IMG/VR virus record: IMGVR_UViG_3300047382_000771
Span: 1-64,000 of that record
DNA length: 64,000 nt
Source: a virus
Reading direction: 5' to 3' (one strand)
Every line of letters begins with the position of its first letter. The stretch's first letter is position 1. The notes under the pieces were generated by a model. The model worked only from the letters and a program-made list of their open reading frames with translations, was not told the DNA's origin and ran no database searches. Below are positions 17,900 through 64,000 of this stretch, piece by piece. The translations under genes and the position numbers were made by a program.

Positions 17900-17975
17900 T
17901 GGAGCCACCTGTCAGAGTCGAACTGACGACATCCTCATTACAAGTGAGGCGCTCTACCAACTGAGCTAAGGTGGC
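17900..17975 (-). tRNA. tRNA-Thr (anticodon TGT)
   Basis: The minus strand folds as a cloverleaf: acceptor GCCACCT pairs with AGGTGGC, the D arm contains AGCTCAGTTGGTAGAGC, the anticodon stem CTCAC/ATGAG encloses CTTGTAA with anticodon TGT, and the T arm has GTTCGA. A 3' CCA is encoded, giving 76 nt. It reads ACA/ACG-type threonine codons. It lies between two short early genes. Confidence 0.95.
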
Positions 17976-30644: not shown

Positions 30645-31043
30645 TGGTGGACGTGGCGGGAGTTGAACCCGCGTCTTTAAAGCTTCAAGCGTTCACTTCT
30701 ACAAGCTTAGTCTATTTTTTTTAAAGTTATGATATAGACATCCAACTACTCGTTTTAATTATTCACTCAAACTTGAGGACCCCGAATAATCAGTGGTGCA
30801 GTTTTTAAAACTAGTAAAAATTTATCAGTTTTTACAGATAAATGACCCACATATTCTTATCTGTGTCAGATTATATGAGTTGGCAGGTGTTAAGCTGCCA
30901 TTTCGAGACCAAGCTCAATAGAGTCAAGGTCTACAACACGCTGAGAAGATTCTGCATGTATAAATTTGCGCCTTATTTAGGAGCCAGACGCACTCCTGCT
31001 TGCCATGAACCAATCCAATTTAAATCGAATCCAGAACACGCCC
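30645..31043 (-). ncRNA. ssrA: tmRNA (ssrA), one-piece
   Basis: The 5' end GGGCGTGTTCTGGATTCGA and the 3' end GCCACGTCCACCA form the tRNA-like domain: GGGCGTG pairs with CACGTCC over 7 bp, and the T arm has GGGTTCAACTCCC. A CCA is encoded. Pseudoknot 1 is visible: AGGAG pairs with CTCCT, and TGCGTC pairs with GGCGCA. The tag frame starts at GCA (30953-30955) and runs to TAA at 30890-30892, giving 21 residues that start AESSQRVVDL and end LGLEMAA, with the usual C-terminal Ala-Ala degradation signal. It rescues stalled ribosomes and tags peptides. It lies between the degenerate UvdE and the dUTPase run; phage-encoded tmRNAs are known but uncommon. Confidence 0.95.
30890..30955 (-). other. tmRNA tag-peptide reading frame
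   Basis: The resume codon GCA at 30953-30955 follows pseudoknot 1 at the expected distance. The frame ends GAA-ATG-GCA-GCT-TAA at 30890, encoding EMAA at the tag end. A competing GCA (frame ANLYMQNL...) overlaps the pseudoknot 3' strand and ends SVL, unlike known tags. Confidence 0.8.
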
Positions 31044-31068: not shown

Positions 31069-32190
31069 TTATTGAGAACTAGTGAATTGAACATCTCCAC
31101 CTTGGGAAACTATATCACTTCTTCTAGCTGACTCATACAATGCATTGTAGTTATCAGAAACTTTCCTGTACTTCCTGCGAGCAATCTCAAGCAATGCATC
31201 TTCAGACATTCTAGATGGAGCATCTGGGCCCATTAATTTAATAATGGCGATATCTTTATCTGTAACATCTACTTCCCATTTAATCTGGTAACCAAAATCT
31301 GGTATGGGTTGAGATAATTCTTTAGCATGAGCACGAGAACCTGGCTCTTTAGATTCAGACCAAGTAAATACAGGTACTACTCCATTCCAAGTTTCGTGAA
31401 AAGCTCCCACATTAACTTGTTGGTCAACTGTGGCCCCAGCGACTTTGGAAGGGTTGAGTTCGTCGAATAAATTATTATAAGCCAAGGGGAAACCGAAGTC
31501 ATGTTCTTCGTAGCAATATACGTGAAAGTATTTAAATAATCCAAATGCACTCCAAGATCCAGAGTCTGCATTTTTAAGCACTAACCTTTTCTGAGTATTG
31601 CTATCTAATAATTTAAAATTTTCATAGAACCTATCGACAAAATCACAATATGCTTCGTGGTTTTCTGCATCAGGCTGGGAGCTTAAATGCAAGGAGATTG
31701 GGGAAGAAATATTTTCTTGAGCTCCTATTTCATCTAAGAACCAGGAGTAAAAATTAAGTTCTTTTATGGATTTTTCAACAATAGAATCATCCGAATCTAT
31801 CAACTTACAAAACTTATCTGGCTGAATGGAAATAGAAACACCTTTTGTGATCGATGTTCTTCCGATATTTTTTATACCTTCAGACAATAAAGACTGATTC
31901 GGTAAGTTTGAGAAATCAATATCGAAAGAAGAATCAGCCAACAATCCAAACACAGAAGTGTTTAGTCTGTAATGATCTATATCGTTTGCCCTGCAGAAAT
32001 CTAATATTCGAACAGTTAGTTCGAGATTAGATAAAACTTGATTAGATAAAACCTCTAAAGCTTCTGACTCGCCCTTCTCTGAAGATAAGGCAGCGAACTG
32101 CTTACGAGTCATCGCTTTAAAGGTGTTTAAAGATGCATCTTCTTCTTGAAGATGCTTTGAGACGCAGATTAATCCATATTTAGTATTCAT
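31069..32190 (-). CDS. Degenerate UvdE paralogue (373 aa), probably non-catalytic
   Basis: The protein aligns along its length to the intact UvdE at 9759: YGLICVSKHLQ, HYRLNTSVFG, SISIQPDKF, SLHLSS, LVLKNADSG, AYNNLFDELNP, FTWSES and SRAHAKE are the matching blocks. Of the nine ligand positions, H124, E205, D237, H240 and H278 are replaced by Q123, K206, N239, F242 and T276; H73, H168 and H288 remain, and E316 is D308. K318 is T310. Metal-dependent cleavage is unlikely. A roughly 50-residue C-terminal tail is extra. It is preceded by the late motif, so it may be a structural or DNA-binding virion component. Confidence 0.85.
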   Translation of the reverse strand: MNTKYGLICVSKHLQEEDASLNTFKAMTRKQFAALSSEKGESEALEVLSNQVLSNLELTVRILDFCRANDIDHYRLNTSVFGLLADSSFDIDFSNLPNQSLLSEGIKNIGRTSITKGVSISIQPDKFCKLIDSDDSIVEKSIKELNFYSWFLDEIGAQENISSPISLHLSSQPDAENHEAYCDFVDRFYENFKLLDSNTQKRLVLKNADSGSWSAFGLFKYFHVYCYEEHDFGFPLAYNNLFDELNPSKVAGATVDQQVNVGAFHETWNGVVPVFTWSESKEPGSRAHAKELSQPIPDFGYQIKWEVDVTDKDIAIIKLMGPDAPSRMSEDALLEIARRKYRKVSDNYNALYESARRSDIVSQGGDVQFTSSQ

Positions 32191-33129: not shown

Positions 33130-36100
33130 CTAAGCGGAAACTCGATAATGCTGGTAAATTGTCGTTTCGGGATTACCCGCAGCCATAGCTGAAAAAGGGT
33201 ATGGGTAGCAAGTTAAAATATTAGAGCCTACACCTCTTTGGTAGGTATTCCAATAACTGTCATTTGTCATATATAAAGCCATAGACTTACTTGGCCCTTC
33301 ACCTTCTCTTTTAAACCAAGCAGAGAAGCCCCAGCTACCTCCTACATGCAAGTCACTCATGTCACTAGGAAATGCTAATTGCGTTCTGAATTTAGTAGTG
33401 CTTGTGGTTGAACCATATAGCGGATCGGCACCTCTGCCATAATTAGTTAACCCATTTAATTCATCCCAAACTTGTGTTTTTGTATAATCATTAGGCCCAG
33501 GGTTATGAAGGTTCATATCGCTTTGAAATGGGTGGTAGCCAGAACTACTAACTTTACCTGTACCAACTTGAAAAACTTTTTGATTGTTATGACGCCCGCT
33601 ATTTGGACCAGAAACTCTTAATGTAAAACCACTAGGAGCTCCTACAATATTACCCGATGGGTTTAGTTCATTTTTGTAACCATAAGTTCCAACTGCAGCA
33701 CCACTTGGGATATTGAAACCTGAAAAAGCGCCAGTAAATTCAGCCTTATATTTTACTTTGTTTAATAAACCTGAACTCCAGCCAGTAGATATTAGACCGT
33801 TCGAGCCATTGTACATTTCGTCAACATCATTTTGGAAAATTGGCGAATCAAAGAAAACGGGTTGATCGATAACACCATTAAAGCAATTATCAATAGACCA
33901 AGAAGAATGTTGAGAGGCTCCTACTCCCCATCTCACGGCCCCAAAGCGAGAAGCATCGTAACTATACCTAGGCGAATAAGTATTGGTCTGTGAGCCCGAT
34001 CCTTTGTGCCAACTAGTATGAACAGCTACAGGGAGCCCGTTAACCCACATTACAACTCTTCTGTCATCTTGTGAGAATGCAATATGATACCATTCCCCAG
34101 TTATGAATTGCTCATAAGGACCTGTGCCAACTGATTTGACGGTACCTGGCCTATAACTATAAGCACTAGATGTAATTACACCGTCAGTATAAGTATCTTC
34201 ATCGGTATCACCTGTATTGGTTGTGACAGCCTGTAACGAGGTACTGTTTGAAACACTAGAAGTGGGAGGCTCCGTTAACCCAGTCTCTTCCCAAGTTGTA
34301 GTTGCTCCTGCAGGTATGCCTGAAACTCCACATCCATCAGCGGTAAATGCAAATACTTCACCATAACCAATACTTACTCCAGCTGAATGGCTGGTTATGG
34401 TAGCATTGCCACTAGCATCAGCGGTATGGTTAGAAGTTGTTGACAATATTGGGTAATTAGTTGTATCTTGACCAGTATTGTACTCTATGATAGCTTCTGA
34501 AGTTCCAGCAAGTATAGAGCTATTTACATCAAGTCCAGAAAATAATGGATGCCAACCTTGGGGAATGTATGTTTGATCAGCTAGCATACTGCTTATTTTA
34601 TAAGCAGGATCAGAACCAGTTCTAGTAAAGTTTCCTGTCGCAAATATTCCATAGTAAGATAAAATTTGGTTGATAGCTACAGGAAAAACAGGAGCATGGT
34701 CGGTAGTCATATATGACCCACCTCCACCATCTATGAAGTTTAAGAATCCATCAATAAATGCTTGTGGTAGATATGCTATAGAGGAACTATGTCCATTAGT
34801 CTCACCATTAACACCTACATAAATAATTAAATCATAATTGTTGAAATAATCTGTCCACTGTTGAGTGGTGCTGTGTAAATTCTCAATAGCATCGTGATGC
34901 AGCCATGTATTTCCTGCGCCTGTATTAACGGGGAGTTGCTCAAAAGTATAGCCAGCATGTTCAGATATATACTTAAATCCATGATAAAATTTATGAGCAC
35001 CATAATATGGAAAAGGTGAAGACCCTGATATACCATTTTTATAGTCGTTGATATATAAAATTTTATTGGTTTTATTTGTGCTTCTTGATAAAAAATTTAT
35101 ATTATTATATAAAAAAGACCATTGAGCTGGTATGTTTGAGGAATCATAAATACTGCCACCTCCTGCTAGAAATGATTCTTCTGTGGTGGTCCATTGGGGA
35201 TCGCCACCTATATTAATTCCTGCAGAATGTGATGACCAACTAGTGCCATCACCATAAGTTGGAACAATAGCTGGAGGAAGGTAACCTACATATTTTAACA
35301 TGCCACCATCAACTGTAATTTTTCCCCCATTTGGTGCGGCAGATCTAATTATGCCTAAGAAGGGATCCCCCTGTTCGTCGTCAGCTAAAGTAGAAAAAGA
35401 TCCTCTGATTCCACTAGAAGTAGCATATTCAGAAATAGTTATTAAAGAATTTGGCCTTGCACCAGTTACTGTAACTGTTTGAGTTGAGTCTCCGTCGTCT
35501 GCTATAGAAATAGATGCCGAAGAACAAGGGTCCGTAATAATAGCCCCCGAACTACCAGCTGAACCTACCGATGTATCAAGCAAGCCTGTAATTCTTAACC
35601 TAGCATAATATGTAGTATCTGGACTAAGGTCGGAAAATGCTACAGAAGCTAGAAGTGTTGGGGATGAAATTGTTTTAGCTATACTTGAAAAGTTTGAATC
35701 TGTCGCCAGCTCATAGTGAAAAGTCGAAAATCCTGCAGCAGGCATGGTTTGCCCAGTAGTTTCAGCAAAATCAAAACCCAAATCATTTTGACCAACAAAA
35801 TTAGATGTAGCTGTAGTGGTTGCTGCAAGCGGATTAAATGCAACAGCAGTTACATTAGAATATGGACTGTCTCCGTACTGAGAGCTGTCAGCTTTTACTC
35901 TATAATAATAAGTGGTTCCCGCAGTTAAATTTGCGGCTGCAGTGTTATAATTATTAGTATAAGATGTACTGTTTGCTGCAAGATGAGCTATATTGGAAAA
36001 CCCTGCGGTACTAGAGGTAGAACTTCTTTCAACCGTAAAACTATCTTCAATAAGAGTATTATCTTGGAATGAAATTTGTATCGATGTGTTTACTTGGCTT

Positions 36101-38166
36101 GCAGAGATAACTTGAGGAGCATTCATGCCAGCTTGAGTAGTAGCAGAAACAGCGGTAGACCAACTACTTACACCGCTGGTATTTTTAGCTCTTATTCTCC
36201 ATTGGTATGTGGTTGCTTGAGTTAAACCGATGTGTGAATATGTAGCAGAAGTTTGAGGCGAAGTAAGTGAGTTTGTAGCTGATGCGTAAGTATTACCTCC
36301 GTCAGAGCTAAATTCTAATTCAAAACTATCTTCATTTGTATTAGTGTCTGTAAAACTAATATCTACCTGTTCATGAGAAACTACGGTCGCCGATGTTATC
36401 GTAGGAGCGGTAAGATCGTCTAGAGTCGTAACAGTTACAGTGGTAAAACTAGATGTTGCGTCCGAATTATAGCCTCTAATCTGATAATGATAGGTATAAT
36501 TAGCAGTTAAATTGGTATCTGAGAAACTAGTTGTATTCGCAGCAAGATCAGCAAGAGGTCCATATGCCCCATTACCTGTTGCTCTTTGTAGGGTGAATCC
36601 ATCTTCATTGTTCGATGTATCAGTCCAAGAGAGTGAAATTGTTGTGTTTGATGTTGGCACTGCAGTTAAATTACTGGGTGCAGAAAGTGAGTTTGTTGTT
36701 GTGGCGCTATCCGTAGCTGTATTTGAGTCACCAGAAGTGTTGAAGCTACGAACTTGGTAGTGGTAGGTTGTATTAAATGTTAACCCAGTGTCAGTATAAG
36801 TTGTGGCACCTGAATTTAAGGTGTCTATGTCAGTATAATTTATTCCGTCCGTACTTCTCGCAATTTTAAAACCGTCTTCATTGTCCGATGTATCAGTCCA
36901 AGACAGTGAAATTGTTGAGTTTGATGCCGCAGTAGCACTGAAACCAGTAATGTCTGACAAAGTGTCCGTGGTAGTAAAGGAGCCACTGAGAGCTGAAGAA
37001 CTGCCTGATGAATTTGTAGCTATAACCTGAAAAGAATAACTATTATCTGTCACTAAGGATCCCCAGGTATAACTAGTCGTTCCTGCTGGCAGATTTACGG
37101 ACCCAATAGACTGCATACTGTTATCTGCATCAAAGCCGTTGATAGTAAACCCATCTTCATTGATAGAGTTATCAGTCCACTGCAACCCTATACTAGTATT
37201 TGTAATGCTTGTAGTAACCAAGTTTGTTGGTGCAGAGAGTGAGTTTGTTGTTGTGGCGCTACCATCGACTGTATTTGAGTCGCCAGAAGTGTTGTAGCCA
37301 CGAACTTGATAATGATAAGTAGTATTGAATGTTAAACCAGTGTCAGTATAAGTTACAACATCTGGACCTACAGTATCTATGTCGGTATAATTTATCCCAT
37401 CTGTGCTTCTTGCAATTTTAAAACCATCTTCGTTAACGGTATTATCTTGCCAATTTAACTCAATAACAGAGTTGCTAATAGGTGTAACAGTTAAACCGCT
37501 TGGACTAAGTAAATCATTAGTTGTAGTAGCACCAAGTACAGCTGGAGCACTTGTGTCATCAGTATTATATCCAATGATTCTATAATGATATGTCGTATCA
37601 TATGTTAACCCTACATCATTGTAGCTAGTAGCATCACTAGGTAGATCAGCTATTTCAGTAAAAGGTCCTGTAGCAGAAGTTGATCGTTCAATTTTGAATC
37701 CATCTTCGTTGTTAGAATTGTCTATCCATGCAAGAGATATACTGCTATTGGATGTACCTGTTGCTGACACTGGGGTTGGAGGCGCAACTAAATTAAGGGT
37801 TGTAATTGTAATTACATCAGAAAAATCACTAACTTGCCCAGCAGGATAATCACCTTTAATTCTATAATAATAGGTAGTGTTATGTGATAAAGCATTATCT
37901 ATAAGACTCTGTTGATTTGGTCCGACAGTTAATGTAGTAAGGTCAACGGTAAAAGCTGCATCTAAGGCTCTTTCAATAACAAATTGAAGCTCGATACCAG
38001 AGTCATCGGTCCAAGATAACTGAGTTTCAGTGTTGCTATTAGCTACTCCTGAAGGATTTTTCGCTGCAACACGAGTCCAAATAACTTGGGCTCCTTGAGC
38101 AATTTTTTCAGCTTTAATATTGCCAACAAAAGCTCGTGCTTGATTGTCTCCTAGTGCCCAGGTCAT
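33130..38166 (-). CDS. Giant fibronectin type III tail fibre / adhesin (1678 aa)
   Basis: The first 60 residues are a fibre attachment region (MTWALGDNQARAFVGNIKAEKIAQG). Eight FN3 repeats of about 95 residues follow to about residue 770, each with an LSWTDNS-x-NEDGFKI strand and a TTYxYRI-x-Y pair. A mixed region with an alpha/beta, hydrolase-like segment (LYINDYKNG...DLIIYVGVNGETNGHS..., residues about 1030-1220) comes next. A LamG-like lectin domain (EWYHIAFSQDDRRVVMWVNGLP) sits near residues 1345-1460. FN3 and LamG domains bind carbohydrates or proteins, so this is most likely a receptor-contact fibre. Two repeats share nearly identical strands, showing recent duplication. Confidence 0.85.
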   Translation of the reverse strand: MTWALGDNQARAFVGNIKAEKIAQGAQVIWTRVAAKNPSGVANSNTETQLSWTDDSGIELQFVIERALDAAFTVDLTTLTVGPNQQSLIDNALSHNTTYYYRIKGDYPAGQVSDFSDVITITTLNLVAPPTPVSATGTSNSSISLAWIDNSNNEDGFKIERSTSATGPFTEIADLPSDATSYNDVGLTYDTTYHYRIIGYNTDDTSAPAVLGATTTNDLLSPSGLTVTPISNSVIELNWQDNTVNEDGFKIARSTDGINYTDIDTVGPDVVTYTDTGLTFNTTYHYQVRGYNTSGDSNTVDGSATTTNSLSAPTNLVTTSITNTSIGLQWTDNSINEDGFTINGFDADNSMQSIGSVNLPAGTTSYTWGSLVTDNSYSFQVIATNSSGSSSALSGSFTTTDTLSDITGFSATAASNSTISLSWTDTSDNEDGFKIARSTDGINYTDIDTLNSGATTYTDTGLTFNTTYHYQVRSFNTSGDSNTATDSATTTNSLSAPSNLTAVPTSNTTISLSWTDTSNNEDGFTLQRATGNGAYGPLADLAANTTSFSDTNLTANYTYHYQIRGYNSDATSSFTTVTVTTLDDLTAPTITSATVVSHEQVDISFTDTNTNEDSFELEFSSDGGNTYASATNSLTSPQTSATYSHIGLTQATTYQWRIRAKNTSGVSSWSTAVSATTQAGMNAPQVISASQVNTSIQISFQDNTLIEDSFTVERSSTSSTAGFSNIAHLAANSTSYTNNYNTAAANLTAGTTYYYRVKADSSQYGDSPYSNVTAVAFNPLAATTTATSNFVGQNDLGFDFAETTGQTMPAAGFSTFHYELATDSNFSSIAKTISSPTLLASVAFSDLSPDTTYYARLRITGLLDTSVGSAGSSGAIITDPCSSASISIADDGDSTQTVTVTGARPNSLITISEYATSSGIRGSFSTLADDEQGDPFLGIIRSAAPNGGKITVDGGMLKYVGYLPPAIVPTYGDGTSWSSHSAGINIGGDPQWTTTEESFLAGGGSIYDSSNIPAQWSFLYNNINFLSRSTNKTNKILYINDYKNGISGSSPFPYYGAHKFYHGFKYISEHAGYTFEQLPVNTGAGNTWLHHDAIENLHSTTQQWTDYFNNYDLIIYVGVNGETNGHSSSIAYLPQAFIDGFLNFIDGGGGSYMTTDHAPVFPVAINQILSYYGIFATGNFTRTGSDPAYKISSMLADQTYIPQGWHPLFSGLDVNSSILAGTSEAIIEYNTGQDTTNYPILSTTSNHTADASGNATITSHSAGVSIGYGEVFAFTADGCGVSGIPAGATTTWEETGLTEPPTSSVSNSTSLQAVTTNTGDTDEDTYTDGVITSSAYSYRPGTVKSVGTGPYEQFITGEWYHIAFSQDDRRVVMWVNGLPVAVHTSWHKGSGSQTNTYSPRYSYDASRFGAVRWGVGASQHSSWSIDNCFNGVIDQPVFFDSPIFQNDVDEMYNGSNGLISTGWSSGLLNKVKYKAEFTGAFSGFNIPSGAAVGTYGYKNELNPSGNIVGAPSGFTLRVSGPNSGRHNNQKVFQVGTGKVSSSGYHPFQSDMNLHNPGPNDYTKTQVWDELNGLTNYGRGADPLYGSTTSTTKFRTQLAFPSDMSDLHVGGSWGFSAWFKREGEGPSKSMALYMTNDSYWNTYQRGVGSNILTCYPYPFSAMAAGNPETTIYQHYRVSA

Positions 38167-40764: not shown

Positions 40765-43700
40765 TTAACTAGCCATTCCTATCAAAGGAGAAGTGGGGCG
40801 AAGCGAAAAATTGCCATTATCTGGACCAACAAATTTAGGATCAAAATCATAAATAATAATACCGTCTGGACCACTTAAATATTCAGTAATTAATGATCCC
40901 CTGTAAGGCTTGTCTGCTTCGTCAATACCAAAAGTACCTCTGACACCATAAATACAAGTATTATGTATTAAATAATTAGCAGTAGAGGTTGTTACTTTTA
41001 CATTTGATACAAATCCAAGATTGCTGCCATGGCCAGAACTGTTGTGACTATAAGACATTTTTTCATTTCCATAAAGAATGCAATTTTTCACTAAAACAGG
41101 ACCGTTAGGAGGGCCATGACTCCAGGCACCGACACCTCCACTACCAACGAGAAAGAGCGTATTCGATATGGGTGTATTTTTGCCAACATAAAAAGTGCAG
41201 CCAATTAAATTCATTCGATCAATAGCTACAAAGCCTGAAGAATTATTACCCCCCGTAGATGTTGACCCCCAAGTACAATCAATTGTACAGTTTTTAAGCT
41301 CCGAACCATCAGCAGCACTTCTGCAAGAACCTGCTGAAGACCCACCTATTGCTGCGCTCTTATTATTGGTTACGGTGCCTTGAAAATTACAGGATTCAAT
41401 TTTAAAAACAGAAAGACTTGTACTTGCCTCAATTGAAAGTAAGCTGTATGTGCCCCGTAGGTTTGTAAAATTAAAATTGTTTAGCCCAGTCTCTAGTGCC
41501 CCTGTGTCTGATAAGATAATCCCATAACCATTATTGCCATCAATATTACAATAAGAAGCAGGTTTATAATCTCTGCCTCCAGGCAAAGTCAGATTAGACG
41601 ATAAAGTTAATTCTTGATTGACGATATATATAGTGTCGCGATTAATGGATGCTGTATGAGCCGCCGCAACAGTTAGCATGGCTGTGGCTGGAGTCTTTCC
41701 ATCGTTAGCATCGTCACCATTAACCAAGTCAACATACCATCCTGATGCTGATTCGCTATAAGTTTGTATGCCCCCAATTAATTCAGAACTTGGACGAAGT
41801 CTATAGTCTGTTTCAGAAATAAAAGCGGGTATCTCTGTGCCGATAAAATCATCGCTAGATGGGGTTGATGAAAGGTTGACATTGTAGTAAAAATTTGAAC
41901 CGCCAGTAGGGGCCCTGTGCCATAAAGTAGTCGATCCAGTGCCTATATGTATAGTATTTTTAACAGAAAAATTTGTTGTACTGTTTAAACCTTGATTGGA
42001 GGTCCCATAGATATTTGCAGCAGAACGTTTGCAGATAAAAGTGCAGTTTTCGATAATTGCTTCTCTGAAAGTGTCTTGATTGTAGTCTCCACCAAAAACA
42101 AGAGCATTAGTTGATTTACCTGTTATGGTACTATTTTTGATCGTAGCAGAAGAACCCCCCAAGAACCAGCCTCTAGTTGTAGCACTGGAATTTATGCTGT
42201 CATCAGTTTGCTCAATATTGCAAGATCCAATATCTAAGTGCCCCCTCATATATATAAGCCCGTAACTAGTACTAAAACCATTATACCGAAGAGTTAAATT
42301 CTTTATAGAAAAAGAAGTACAGTCTGGACCATAAAAGAAAGCATTATAACTGGTTCCAGTAGCACCTGTCGAAAAAATTATAGTGTTTTTAGTATTTTCA
42401 CCTATGATTTTAAGGTCAGCAGCTAAGTCCGACTCTTGACGAGGCAGCGTGTGAGTTCCGTTTTTGACAAGCAATGTCCCTGATACGTGTAGTGAAGCAA
42501 GAAAATTATTGTGAGGATTATCATAACTACCAACACCACGAGTAACAACAATTTCATTACTCATATTTGGATGTGGAGCTTGACACTCATATCTATAGAC
42601 ACCTTCTCTAAGAGTGCTAAAAGTTAATATGCCACCACTTTCTTGAGCTATCAATGCACCACTAGAATCTTTAATACCGATAGGATGCCCGCCCGTATTG
42701 TTTGTGAAAATTAAAGTGTCCCCAGTTTTAACATCAAGTTTTGGATCTGTGCCTGTAGCATCACCACTAAATGTATAGTTGTTTCCATCTCCGCTATCTA
42801 GGGAATAGTTACGTGTGGCAAATGTAGGTGTATGATTAGAGTCATACCAAAATCCTTCAGGGTATTCTAGTGATAAAGAATCTTTTGGTTGGTATCCACC
42901 AATCAAGGGGGAAGTTGGGCGTAAAGAAAGATTACTTTCATCTGCGTTAATAAATTCTGGATTAGTTGTTATGCCTCCAGATAAATTATTATTTATAACT
43001 CCTCCTGTATCTGAATCGTTTTCCAAATAAAAACTATTTGTTCCTTCAGTTATAGTACCTAAACGGCTTAAGCTTTGAGTTGGGTGTCCGTCTTGTAAAT
43101 ATTTAATATGGAATATATTATTCTTGAGAGTTATATCTCCACAGTTATATATTAAGTTATATTGACTATTTTTAACTCTAATATAAAAAGTATTATTTTC
43201 AAAAACAGAACCACTACCACCAGAAAGGCTAAATAAGTAGGAAGGGCCCTTGTATTGATAGTCAAAAACACAACCCCTTATATAGCCACCATTCCAAGAG
43301 CCACTTAATGTACGAGTCCAAAGTCCACTTGATGGCTCTTGCTTGAGTGGGGATAATGTCCCCCAAGGCGTTTCTTGTGTGGATATGCAAGAGTCTAAAT
43401 TATGCTTAAACCCTGTGCCATAAGTACCAGGTATAACATTAGTTTGTACGCTGTTGTAAAAAACTACATCCTTCCATGTTACATTGCTTCCTGCCCAGTA
43501 TGCACAATTAACAATGATGTATGCCTTGTGCCTGTTTTTTGCTTGGATAGTACAATTATTTGGCCACCACATGGCATATGTTGAGTAGTCCCAAGTGTAT
43601 CTGCCATCTCCAAGAATGATGGTGCCGCCTGCGCCGTCTGCTTGGTAGATAGCATTGCCACCAATAGGATTATCTGGCGTCCATGTTCCTAGCTCTTCAG

Positions 43701-44007
43701 CAAGAAAATTAACAGTACTAGAGCTTGTTCCATGAAGAGTCCATTCGCTGTTATTTATTACCCGAAGGTTAGTGGTCGAATCAATGAGTAAAAAAGGGTA
43801 CTCTTTACTTCCTGCAGGTGCCCAATCTGTAGGATTGTTTTGAGGCTCTGTGGTTGAGTTGTTGCTATTTATGCATACGAAAATTCTATTTCTAGAACCA
43901 TCAAAATAATCTACCCTGTCCCCAGGGTTATAGTTTGTTGACCCAAGATCATCCCAGGTGCTTCGTGAATAATTTGATGTGACCTCTACATATACAGTTT
44001 TGCTCAT
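40765..44007 (-). CDS. Beta-helix tail spike with embedded cupredoxin domain (1080 aa)
   Basis: The N-terminus (STWDDLGSTNYNPGDRVDYFDGSRNRIFVCINSNN) is a chitin-binding-type (CBM5/12-like) module. Two right-handed beta-helix regions follow, each with a terminal FSLRPTSPLIG or YRLRPSSELIGG motif. Between them, at residues about 400-488, sits a plastocyanin-like domain with the four type-1 copper ligands H441, C475, H479 and M482 (GGHPI and YECQAPHPNMS). Such a domain would bind copper and perhaps sense or exchange electrons. It is a close relative of the next gene. Confidence 0.8.
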   Translation of the reverse strand: MSKTVYVEVTSNYSRSTWDDLGSTNYNPGDRVDYFDGSRNRIFVCINSNNSTTEPQNNPTDWAPAGSKEYPFLLIDSTTNLRVINNSEWTLHGTSSSTVNFLAEELGTWTPDNPIGGNAIYQADGAGGTIILGDGRYTWDYSTYAMWWPNNCTIQAKNRHKAYIIVNCAYWAGSNVTWKDVVFYNSVQTNVIPGTYGTGFKHNLDSCISTQETPWGTLSPLKQEPSSGLWTRTLSGSWNGGYIRGCVFDYQYKGPSYLFSLSGGSGSVFENNTFYIRVKNSQYNLIYNCGDITLKNNIFHIKYLQDGHPTQSLSRLGTITEGTNSFYLENDSDTGGVINNNLSGGITTNPEFINADESNLSLRPTSPLIGGYQPKDSLSLEYPEGFWYDSNHTPTFATRNYSLDSGDGNNYTFSGDATGTDPKLDVKTGDTLIFTNNTGGHPIGIKDSSGALIAQESGGILTFSTLREGVYRYECQAPHPNMSNEIVVTRGVGSYDNPHNNFLASLHVSGTLLVKNGTHTLPRQESDLAADLKIIGENTKNTIIFSTGATGTSYNAFFYGPDCTSFSIKNLTLRYNGFSTSYGLIYMRGHLDIGSCNIEQTDDSINSSATTRGWFLGGSSATIKNSTITGKSTNALVFGGDYNQDTFREAIIENCTFICKRSAANIYGTSNQGLNSTTNFSVKNTIHIGTGSTTLWHRAPTGGSNFYYNVNLSSTPSSDDFIGTEIPAFISETDYRLRPSSELIGGIQTYSESASGWYVDLVNGDDANDGKTPATAMLTVAAAHTASINRDTIYIVNQELTLSSNLTLPGGRDYKPASYCNIDGNNGYGIILSDTGALETGLNNFNFTNLRGTYSLLSIEASTSLSVFKIESCNFQGTVTNNKSAAIGGSSAGSCRSAADGSELKNCTIDCTWGSTSTGGNNSSGFVAIDRMNLIGCTFYVGKNTPISNTLFLVGSGGVGAWSHGPPNGPVLVKNCILYGNEKMSYSHNSSGHGSNLGFVSNVKVTTSTANYLIHNTCIYGVRGTFGIDEADKPYRGSLITEYLSGPDGIIIYDFDPKFVGPDNGNFSLRPTSPLIGMAS

Positions 44008-44009
44008 TA

Positions 44010-47000
44010 CTATAATCCTTTGCCAATTAATGTCGAAGTTGGTCGTAAGTTGAATTTATTACTATCTGGGTCTACAAATTTTGGGTCAACTCCGAATAAA
44101 TTATTTTTTGAATTCAGTATTTCCGTATGATCATGGCTGCTATAAACTGGGCTAACCCCATTAAAACAATTGTTTTTTATATTAGGTAATTTAGAGGAAT
44201 TGTTCGTTCCTATGCTGGCTGCTCCATTTGGTATGTGAATAATATTGTTTTGAAATATTCTTTGGTTTTGAGAATAGTTAGTTCCGAAAATTAACGAAGG
44301 AGATACATATGTGCCATTGGCAGCGTTTCTTCCATTAAAAGTTGTAATGCCTGCGGGAATGTAAAATGTGCAATTTTTCCAACTCCATGCTCCATGATAT
44401 TGATCATCCGCAAAGCTGTCTCCTCCACATAATAACCCACCAGCATGGTCAAAAGCAATAGAGATCTCACAATTTTCCCAATGCATCGTAGAGGAATATA
44501 TGTTTCTGCCGCCACCTGTCCACGGGTAAGTGGTGCTTGATGCAGTATTTATATGCCCTAAGAATTTACAATTTTTAAAGGTACAAGACCCTAAGCCAGC
44601 TGAACCAGATACAGAAGTTATCATATTTCTTGTAGCATTATCTGCACCTATCATATTATTAAATTGGATACCAGTAAAGGTAGTATCTAGATCTAGGAAT
44701 GCCCCAATCGAAGGCCCTGGAACTGTACCCCCATATGGTTTGTATGCGAAAATATTACTTGGGTCCAATTTTGCATCAAATATAACTTCATTTATTGTCT
44801 CTGCAATATAATTGTAGCCCGCACAAGTATAAGCATACCATACATTTGAGCTGACATTTGATGACGGGCTCCTGCCAAACGATGTAGTCCAGTCGTATGT
44901 TCCGTTTATTATTATAATAGTTGATCCATAAGGAACTCCAGCATTAACAATTTCCTTAAATTCATTAAACGGACCAGCGTCTCCATGAGCACTCATTGAG
45001 GAAGCATCTTTTTGTGAGCCGTCTCCATTGTATGCATTACCTGGCTGGAGATAGTAGACATTAGTGGGTTCTGCCGTTAACCCTCCTATCGCTGGAGAGT
45101 CAGCACGCAATCTAAGGTCTTCAGATCCCGCAATTGTTTGAACGAATGAAGGGTCAGCTGTACTATTGAGATCCATATCCGCAGGGAGCCGTGTGAAAGA
45201 ATCAGTAGTGGAATAAAAGATACAACTAGAAAACACTCCAGTTGAGGGGTTATTGGAATAAAAATCCCCTCCAACATTACTGTAAAATATGCAATTTTTA
45301 ATTGAAGAACCGTTATTAACGCTAAAAGCACCGCCTACCATAAGTGGACTTGGACCGCTGTGAACATAATTATACCCACTAAGCTTGCAAAATGTACAAG
45401 ACTGAACATCGTAAGCAATCTTACTAGTGCCATTTAGAAACGCTCCACCAGGACCATTATTATCTGACAATGGTACATTAAATTGGCAGCCTGAGAGCTT
45501 GAATGAATATCCGTCAGGTAGATGACTTGTAAAATAATCAAATACACTTGAATTAATACCAGCGCCCAACTCAGCGGTAATGTTTACAGATTTGGCGCTA
45601 AAACTTTTCCAATGAGCACCCGAGAATAAACCCCTATTAAGATAACTAGAAGTATTATTTATATGAATAGTAATATTCTCTAGATTAAGTGGGGTTTGTG
45701 ACTGAGGGCCGCCAGTAAAGAGCGAGGTCCCCACATAAAAAGCTGAATAAGAATTAAAATTATTCCCAGTGGTTAACCTTGAATTATGGTTTTCTCCGAT
45801 AAAATACAAGCCGCCTGAAAAAGCTGAAGATATACCAGTGCTAGTCGAGTATCCAGTTCCTGGATACCAAGACATCAAATGATCCCCCTCCTTAAATAAA
45901 AGAGTCAGTTTTGAATCGAAGTAACCAGCATCTATTGCATCATGATAGCTCTCGAAAGGATTATTATAAGAACCAAGAGTACCTTGTGATACCACTATGT
46001 CACCTCTCATGTTTTGATGTCCAGAAACTGTACATTGATAGTAGTATGTGTCTGCGTATTTTGGAGTGAATGTAGTTGTACCTCCAGATTCAGAAGCTAC
46101 TTCAAGTCCTTGGCTATTGTAAATTGCAAGGGGGTGACCTCCAGTATTATTTGCAAAAGTTAATGTGTCTTGAATGTTGACATTAAGTGTTGGGTCTGAT
46201 CCTGTTTCATCACCGCTAAATGTATAATTTGTTCCGTTACCACTATCTAGGCTAAAGGTATGTGACGCTTGCACTGGAGTATGGTTATGGTCCACCCATA
46301 CTCCATCTGGGTATTTTTTAGATAAAGAACTTTCGTCTTTAATTCCACCAATCAATGGAGAGGACGGCCTTAAAGAAAAATTACCTTTACTAGAATCCAC
46401 AAATCCAGGGTCTAAATATTGGAAATCATCAGTAACCTCCGTGAAAGTATTAGCGTCAGAAGCTGAATATAATATATTAGATTCACCTATATTATTTGAA
46501 TGTGTTATATTAATCGGTCCAGTAGAGGTGTACCCCAGGTGGGTCGCATAAAAAATACAACTCTTTACATAGGGGCTTTTGCTAAGATTGCTAGAACCGT
46601 AGAAAAGTGGGCTATAGTTATTGCCGCTACCAAAGCCCAGGGCAAATGTAGTATTTTCCCAAATAGGACGCTCTCCTTCATGTAGCGTCGTGCCATTGCC
46701 AAATAATGGGGCAGTTGCATTAGGGAAATATAAAAGCGTATCTTTAAATGATGTATGATTAGCATTACCAATCCTGAAGTCATTACCATTTGCTGGCCCA
46801 TAAGGGCAATCTTCATCAGTTAATTTACATTGTTTAAAAAATATTTTAGAATTACTTTCTATAAGTTTAATACTACTACCTCCACCCATTATTAAATTAA
46901 TTCCAGTAATTTCACTTCTATGAGTAGTTAAGCTGTTTCCATAATGAATATAATGATAATTAAAATAGAAATGAGTAATGGTCACCTGACCTGTATTTAA

Positions 47001-62143: not shown

Positions 62144-64000
62144 TTATGATACTTTAAATTTTATTTCAGAATTCGATAGGTAGAAATCAAAATTTATAGA
62201 TGTATTTACATTTTTATTTAAAACATAAGAAGATAGTGGAGACTCTATGTTTTTCTTAATTATTCTATCTAAAGGCCTAGCTCCCATGTTTTCTTTTCTT
62301 GCTAATTCACATATATATTGTACGGAATCTTCATCTAAAGATAGGGAGATATCTCTTTTTTTCAGTTTCTTTTTTAGAGAAGAGATTTTGCCATTTAATA
62401 TTTTAATAAAAGATTCTTGTGGTAAGTTCTCGAATAAAATAATCTCATCAAGCCTATTGCAAAGTTCTGGGCTTAATAATTTTATAGCTTCTTCTCTGAC
62501 TTCTTCTTCTTTTGTATTATTTGACTGGCTAAACCCGAGACTGGTTTTGGTTAAAAGGTGAGCCCCTATGTTACTAGTTAATATAATAACACAATCTTTA
62601 AAATACGCTTTGCCGCCAAACTGATCTTCTATCTCACCTTCCTCTAAGATTTGTAATAATAATTGCTGGACATCTCTATGAGCTTTCTCTATTTCATCAA
62701 AAATTAAAACACAGTGTGGGGTTTTTTTAACTTTTTCTATTAAGAATCCCCCCTCTTCATAACCCACATAGCCAGGAGAAGAGCCTATAAGCTTTGATGA
62801 GGATATTTTTTCAGAGTACTCAGACATATCTAGTCTGATGACTTTTTTAGAATCTCCAAAAAACTTTTCAGCTAAAACTTTGCCAGTATAGGTTTTGCCA
62901 GTACCTGTTAGACCTAGAAATAAAAATGAAGATATTGGTTTGTGGTTATCCTTAATGCCTAATTTTGACCTACCTATGCTATCCACTATGGAGTCAATAG
63001 CAGATGGTTGACCTATAACTTGAGATTTTAGGGAACGTTTTAAATTATTTAAATTAAACGAAGATGATTTATTGATATGCTCTACTGGCACCTTTGTTTT
63101 TTTAGCGACTATAGACTCAATCAGGTCTATTGATATGGTTCTATCTATAGATTTTTCCCATTTGTTGTATTCATCTTCGTATCTATCCAGTAAGCTTTCC
63201 TCTAGTTTAGCATTAATTTCAGGCTCATAACTTAAGTCGTAGAGCTGGGATTCTATTTGAGATAAAGAGGAAGGTTCGGTTAGATTAAATATTTTTAAAC
63301 AAGAGCCAGCCTCATCCATTAAATCGATGGCTTTATCAGGGAAATATTTAGTTGGCAAAAACTCTTCAGCCAAATCCACAATTTTCTTCAAGCATGTTTT
63401 GGAGTATTTTACATCATGGAATTCTTCGTATGATTTTTTAATTCCATTAAGTATTTCTAGGCACTCGCTTTTGTTGGGCTCATCAACAAACACAGGTTCA
63501 AGCCTTCTGTTCAAAGCCATATCTTTTTCTATGCTTTTTTTATACTCTGGATATGTAGTGGCGGTAATTAGTTTGATTTGACCCCTAGCGAGAGCTGGCT
63601 TTAATATATTAGCAGCATCCAATGCCCCCTCCGCACTCCCCGCACCAATCAAGGTATGAGCCTCGTCAATAAATAAAATAATATTAGAATCAGAAACCTC
63701 TGAAATTAAGTTTTTTAATCTTTGCTCGAATTGACCTCTATATTTAGTGCCAGCAACCATTGATGCTATATCGACAGCATAAACTTCAAAATTTTGCAAG
63801 AAAGATGGGCAGCGTTTAGCCACAATTAGATTAGCTAGACCTTCCACACATGCAGTTTTACCTACGCCAGGGTCACCAATTAAAATGGGATTGTTTTTAT
63901 TTTTTCTACCCAAGATTTCGAAAATTCTATTAACTTCAGAGTCACGACCTATGACTTTATCAATCTTGCCCCTCGATGACATTTCATTTAAATTAACACA
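62144..64000 (-). CDS. ClpA/ClpC-type double AAA+ unfoldase, 5'-partial
   Basis: Two AAA+ modules are present: D1 with GDPGVGKTACVEG and LFIDEAHTLIGAG, and D2 with GLTGTGKTYTGKVLAEKF, RLDMSEYSEK, GSSPGYVGYEEGG and FDEIEKAHRDVQQLLLQILEEG. The D1-D2 joint is short, so it lacks the long middle domain of ClpB. The loop TKTSLGFSQSN carries LGF where ClpA/ClpC place their ClpP-binding tripeptide. The frame stays open to the edge (CVNLNEM before MSSRGKIDKVIGRD), which matches the conserved linker before D1, so the true start lies beyond the window. It should unfold proteins, perhaps with a host or phage ClpP. Confidence 0.85.
   Translation of the reverse strand, partial: CVNLNEMSSRGKIDKVIGRDSEVNRIFEILGRKNKNNPILIGDPGVGKTACVEGLANLIVAKRCPSFLQNFEVYAVDIASMVAGTKYRGQFEQRLKNLISEVSDSNIILFIDEAHTLIGAGSAEGALDAANILKPALARGQIKLITATTYPEYKKSIEKDMALNRRLEPVFVDEPNKSECLEILNGIKKSYEEFHDVKYSKTCLKKIVDLAEEFLPTKYFPDKAIDLMDEAGSCLKIFNLTEPSSLSQIESQLYDLSYEPEINAKLEESLLDRYEDEYNKWEKSIDRTISIDLIESIVAKKTKVPVEHINKSSSFNLNNLKRSLKSQVIGQPSAIDSIVDSIGRSKLGIKDNHKPISSFLFLGLTGTGKTYTGKVLAEKFFGDSKKVIRLDMSEYSEKISSSKLIGSSPGYVGYEEGGFLIEKVKKTPHCVLIFDEIEKAHRDVQQLLLQILEEGEIEDQFGGKAYFKDCVIILTSNIGAHLLTKTSLGFSQSNNTKEEEVREEAIKLLSPELCNRLDEIILFENLPQESFIKILNGKISSLKKKLKKRDISLSLDEDSVQYICELARKENMGARPLDRIIKKNIESPLSSYVLNKNVNTSINFDFYLSNSEIKFKVS

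Follow-up and report, generated by a model that had tools for sequence, protein, structure and literature searches.

A cupredoxin domain with a type-1-type ligand set in a putative phage tail spike and its relatives in tail proteins of marine phages

RESULTS

Two adjoining putative tail spikes are built from similar units

The window analyzed here is a stretch of 64,000 nucleotides of viral DNA that corresponds to positions 1 to 64,000 of the IMG/VR virus record IMGVR_UViG_3300047382_000771. Its minus strand carries two adjoining genes for putative tail spikes, referred to as spike A and spike B, both of which contain a cupredoxin domain. The corresponding features are as follows:

40765..44007, minus strand: putative tail spike of 1080 amino acids (spike A) bearing the domain; assigned from the open reading frame, a sub-threshold DUF5123 match and the tail-fibre-like cluster
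42892..44007, minus strand: spike A unit 1, approximately residues 1-372, last motif LSLRPTSPLIGG
42532..42840, minus strand: cupredoxin domain, spike A residues 390-492; assigned by AF2, VIA-align and the leave-out HMM
41770..42531, minus strand: spike A unit 2, approximately residues 493-746, last motif YRLRPSSELIGG
40768..41769, minus strand: spike A unit 3, approximately residues 747-1080, from the comparison with relative L012
44010..47417, minus strand: spike B, a paralogue of spike A of 1135 amino acids that adjoins it
45972..46292, minus strand: second cupredoxin domain (GGHP...YYQCTVSGHQNM), in spike B

Spikes A and B are 33% identical, and in both proteins each unit is closed by an LRPxSxLIG-like motif and the cupredoxin domain is placed between unit 1 and unit 2. 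Unit 1 of spike A opens with a CBM5/12-like stretch, as judged from its likeness to spike B. The CBM5/12 matches, as well as a DUF5123 match to spike A residues 268-367 (E 9.4e-6), are below threshold; taken together with the residue pattern, they suggest that the units are beta-helical and carry small modules at their heads. An earlier note on this DNA had located the domain between beta-helix regions. Its location between repeated units of a putative spike is confirmed, and a beta-helical nature of these units is plausible, the predicted model of spike A residues 1-760 being of low confidence (mean pLDDT 49.7).

Comparison of the whole of spike A with PHROGs gave no significant match, and searches of viral contigs with full-length spike A and then spike B retrieved no relatives either time. 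Between 47 and 62 kb, the strand that encodes spike A carries tail fibre-like, sheath-like, and S74-chaperone genes, and the spike A gene forms part of this tail gene cluster. Downstream of the spikes, a 1678-amino-acid protein (33130-38166, minus strand) combines seven fn3 stretches with an unassigned C-terminal part.

The terminase of this phage shares only about 22% identity with the best phage records, indicating that the phage is not closely related to the domain-bearing cyanophages described below and comes from a lineage that has no close relatives among annotated phages. A PhoH-like gene is found near the very divergent terminase large subunit (L091 6184-6906; G000 terminase at 164814). 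The window also contains a tmRNA gene (30645-31043, minus strand; tag AESSQRVVDLDSIELGLEMAA), which adjoins a UvdE-like endonuclease gene (31069-32190), a tRNA-Thr(TGT) at 17900, and a gene for a ClpA/ClpB-type AAA protein (62144-63982, minus strand) that belongs to PHROG 4871, ATP-dependent protease, and whose best matches, at 41-45%, are mostly phage records from human faeces.

A cupredoxin fold is predicted for residues 390-492 of spike A

The earlier note had proposed a cupredoxin domain within the 1080-residue spike, at 42540-42825, i.e., residues 395-490, and had named fold prediction as a check. The proposal is borne out by several lines of evidence. An HMM built exclusively from the domains of other viruses, excluding both the window and the copies found elsewhere in this genome, recognized the spike A domain with 59.3 bits (E 8.1e-18), which rules out a chance motif. 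The AF2 model of residues 390-492, based on an alignment of 49 sequences, is all beta, with a mean pLDDT of 92.6, and corresponds to a Greek-key beta-sandwich of the cupredoxin type. Foldseek returned 227 matches to the PDB at E<=1e-3 for this model; among the matches listed there are exclusively copper proteins or cupredoxin-fold domains, including nitrite reductases, rusticyanin, amicyanin, and plastocyanin. The best VIA-align superimposition was with the N-terminal cupredoxin domain of 2dv6 (Z 12.2, rmsd 2.0 A over 93 residues), followed by rusticyanin and auracyanin with Z 9-10.

Named sequence families capture the domain less readily. On its own it scores 20.0 bits against PF00127 (Copper-bind), just below the gathering cut-off of 21.2, while 10 of 11 relatives match this profile at E<=1, and its 20.8 bits against the amicyanin model TIGR02657 fall short of the equivalog cut-off of 110.2. 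We conclude that residues 390-492 of spike A almost certainly form a cupredoxin domain.

The type-1 ligand set is complete and conserved

The four candidate ligands are located as follows:

42685..42687, minus strand: H441, first histidine ligand (GGHP); profile alignment and family conservation
42583..42585, minus strand: C475, cysteine ligand ending a beta strand; alignment and AF2 model
42571..42573, minus strand: H479, second histidine ligand, located in the loop that follows C475; profile alignment
42562..42564, minus strand: M482, axial methionine ligand; profile alignment

The complete type-1-type site that had been proposed at these four residues was correctly positioned. In profile alignments each of them is matched to the corresponding ligand of plastocyanin 2plt and 2dv6, so that a full set of His, Cys, His, and axial Met/Gln is present in the right register. 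The AF2 model (in which H441, C475, H479, and M482 are residues 52, 86, 90, and 93, respectively) places the four residues in a type-1 arrangement along the chain: H441 immediately precedes the strand 54-57, C475 is at the end of a strand, and H479 and M482 are in the loop that follows. A CuA site was dropped from consideration, as a second Cys is absent.

Among 112 distinct complete domains, drawn from viral contigs and cyanophages, the set HCHM was found in 93 and HCHQ in 10. All four ligands are among the eight columns with the highest conservation in the family, at an overall identity of about 30%. Neither the second His nor the Met was part of the search patterns, and their conservation is therefore not a search bias. 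Cys was lost in 6 of the 112 domains, and all six of these have also lost the second His. On the tree, ligand losses correspond to about five changes, two of which are on well-supported branches, so that the joint loss of Cys and second His, read from these sequences, is suggestive but involves too few independent events for significance.

Axial Gln ligands are known from stellacyanin. In a WCHYHTGQG subgroup (L030 3304-3588, L080 6978-7265, and eight others), which occurs as an additional copy in long proteins with several cupredoxins, Gln replaces the axial Met. A 3087-amino-acid ORF, observed in L047 and L048, contains five cupredoxin-like stretches, at least one of which has lost the ligand set (HSAM).

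The domain is present in three copies and travels as part of a cassette

The domain of spike A had been announced as a first copy, and two more were indeed found. The second is that of spike B, and the third is encoded further along the same 200-kb virus record, at 172.9 kb, where it is fused to an apparent lectin-type sandwich (a LamG-like sequence, as judged by eye) and is neighbored by genes that match virion structural PHROGs. Loop lengths differ among the three copies (C-x3-H-x2-M, C-x4-H-x2-M, and C-x2-H-x3-M), and each retains a ligand set nonetheless.

The cupredoxin domains of spikes A and B are 53% identical over their whole length, whereas the flanking units can be aligned only in part, at 26-42%. 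At the sequence level, the cupredoxin is thus the best conserved part of the two spikes. Further information comes from the relative L012. One of its genes combines a unit 1 that is A-like (46% identity to A, 29% to B) with a cupredoxin that is B-like (78% to B, 58% to A) and a subsequent B-like unit 2. In the preceding L012 gene, unit 3 follows directly after unit 1, without a cupredoxin. This mixture of A-like and B-like parts, together with the cupredoxin-less neighbor, indicates that the domain travels as part of a cassette.

The domain recurs in tail proteins of marine phages

The earlier note had treated a copper site in a spike as an exceptional setting. This view was not upheld, since the domain recurs in many marine phage tail proteins, including gp9 baseplate connectors. 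One scan of viral contigs yielded 75 domain loci, and among annotated phages 61 records contain the domain, nearly all of them Synechococcus or Prochlorococcus phages. In annotated phages it is often found as the C-terminal part of the baseplate wedge-tail fibre connector, gp9. It is present in gp9 of S-SM1, P-SSM4, and S-CAM8 with the ligands kept, and the tail spike of P-SSM2 has two copies, again with the ligands kept in both. In the podovirus P-GSP1 the domain-bearing gene adjoins a tail fibre gene.

The domain is matched by PHROGs 677 (baseplate wedge tail fibre connector), 15006 (tail fibre), and 4636 (tail spike), none of which names copper. The match to PHROG 677 is confined to profile positions 308-408 of 412, and spike A is therefore not a gp9-type protein. 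Capture of a plastocyanin gene was considered and rejected: the domain is embedded in larger proteins, and matches to PHROG 515 (PetE) were confined to 2 of 11 relatives and were weak. No cellular relatives were retrieved from genome contigs in a search started from the three-copy alignment; its patterns were narrow, so that such relatives may still exist. A full-text literature search, with preprints and many subscription journals outside its scope, found no paper that describes the domain in its title or abstract. The fold and the site are well known, but their recurrent use as a tail module is apparently undescribed.

DISCUSSION

A proposed structural or adhesive module that may carry copper

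We propose that the spike A domain is one copy of a mobile tail module, inserted into or appended to tail proteins by marine tailed phages, that has an intact type-1-type site and a structural or adhesive use; we give this reading an even chance. The site is very probably capable of holding copper, and copper binding in the virion is predicted and appears rather probable. For the putative role itself, structural or adhesive rather than redox, the case is evenly balanced. That the cupredoxin is conserved rather than variable and recurs in tail proteins argues for a general tail function and not for the recognition of one host protein.

The bacterial host cytoplasm, in which tails are assembled, contains almost no free copper. 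Because of this scarcity, we infer that copper is loaded after release from the host: the chain would fold in the reducing cytoplasm with its site empty and would acquire its copper from the environment once the cell has lysed. The bound metal might then clamp the loop following C475 to the H441 loop and stiffen the exposed beta-sandwich. Situated at the head of unit 2, the module may keep the receptor-binding parts of the spike apart or serve as an adhesive between them, in parallel to the carbohydrate-binding-module-like stretch that heads unit 1 of spike B. Copper would not be needed in every family member, because some have lost the site while keeping the sequence signature of the fold.

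These losses also agree with a different explanation, according to which the cupredoxin fold is an Ig-like sandwich that serves for adhesion or spacing only and the site is a relic, empty or holding zinc in the virion. The six of 112 domains without Cys and second His have retained the sequence signature of the fold, Ig-like sandwiches are frequent in tail proteins, as illustrated by the fn3 stretches of the neighboring 1678-amino-acid protein, and a host cytoplasm nearly devoid of free copper fits an empty site. However, a relic would be expected to decay, yet H, C, H, and M rank among the most conserved columns of a family with about 30% identity, and the three copies of this genome have kept them through changes in loop length. 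We thus consider a relic site unlikely, albeit a reading to be taken seriously.

The location of the domain in marine phage tail proteins also brings to mind the iron Trojan-horse proposal for HxH motifs in marine phage tail fibres (PMC11705849). By analogy, a copper-loaded domain could feed the copper uptake of the host surface, or scavenge copper from seawater, and so promote attachment. No link to a copper receptor was found, and the domain is the conserved part of the spike and also occurs on gp9, a connector and not a receptor-binding tip, which makes a Trojan horse improbable.

In known cases, type-1 sites are mostly electron-transfer sites. Given this precedent and the complete ligand set, the domain could exchange electrons with a host surface protein, or sense copper or redox state and trigger a change in the tail. 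Against this stand the lack of a partner among the window genes examined, the fact that no conserved docking surface was identified, and the observation that, where cyanophages require an electron carrier, they encode plastocyanin (PetE) as a protein of its own (PMC3037559); a redox role is accordingly judged quite improbable. The uses suggested in the earlier note, namely, copper sensing, cross-linking, and docking to a host electron-transfer protein, received no finding in their favor. Lastly, spike and domain might be secreted or host-surface proteins of infection instead of virion parts, as could be argued from the missing significant PHROG match of the spike, but the genes belong to a series of tail-fibre-like and sheath-like genes and the relatives comprise gp9 connectors and annotated tail spikes, so that this is highly improbable.

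Implications

Extending the mobile-module reading to the family, we tentatively raise the possibility that marine phages employ copper-loaded type-1 sites as a standard tail module, in gp9 connectors, spikes, and fibres, with the metal needed for stability or attachment. If true, virions would represent an unrecognized pool of protein-bound copper. If the sites hold copper, the tails of abundant marine phages would be copper proteins, which would be relevant to attachment, to the stability of the tail, and to the cycling of copper in the sea. Cultured carriers such as S-SM1, P-SSM4, S-CAM8, and P-SSM2 make the copper question directly testable on virions. This work may also be helpful for annotation, as it identifies a cupredoxin inside proteins now labeled "hypothetical" or merely "baseplate connector."

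Comparison with known systems

The fold of the spike domain is common to the small blue copper proteins plastocyanin, amicyanin, and rusticyanin (PF00127), which also share its ligand order, H...C-x(n)-H-x(n)-M, and the location of the ligands where the penultimate strand ends. The spacing between C and H is variable in the phage domains, as it is among the known small blue copper proteins. The context of the first ligand differs, being H-P in the spike domain and H-N in plastocyanin and amicyanin, and, unlike these small proteins, the spike domain is embedded in a large tail protein. The best structural match, the N-terminal cupredoxin of the Hyphomicrobium denitrificans nitrite reductase (2dv6/6tfd), has ligands that align with those of the spike, but it forms part of an enzyme with a catalytic core, and the spike has no such core.

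Among phage proteins, the C-terminal approximately 100 residues of gp9 (PHROG 677) are the same domain with its ligands intact, whereas the body of gp9 is absent from the spike, in which the domain is internal and not C-terminal. The T4 gp37-type HxH fibres and the fibre of alterophage R22Y (PMC11705849) likewise have a metal site in a tail adhesin. These fibres bind iron, have another fold, and recruit their ligands from trimeric motifs, whereas the ligands of the spike domain are all contributed by one chain.
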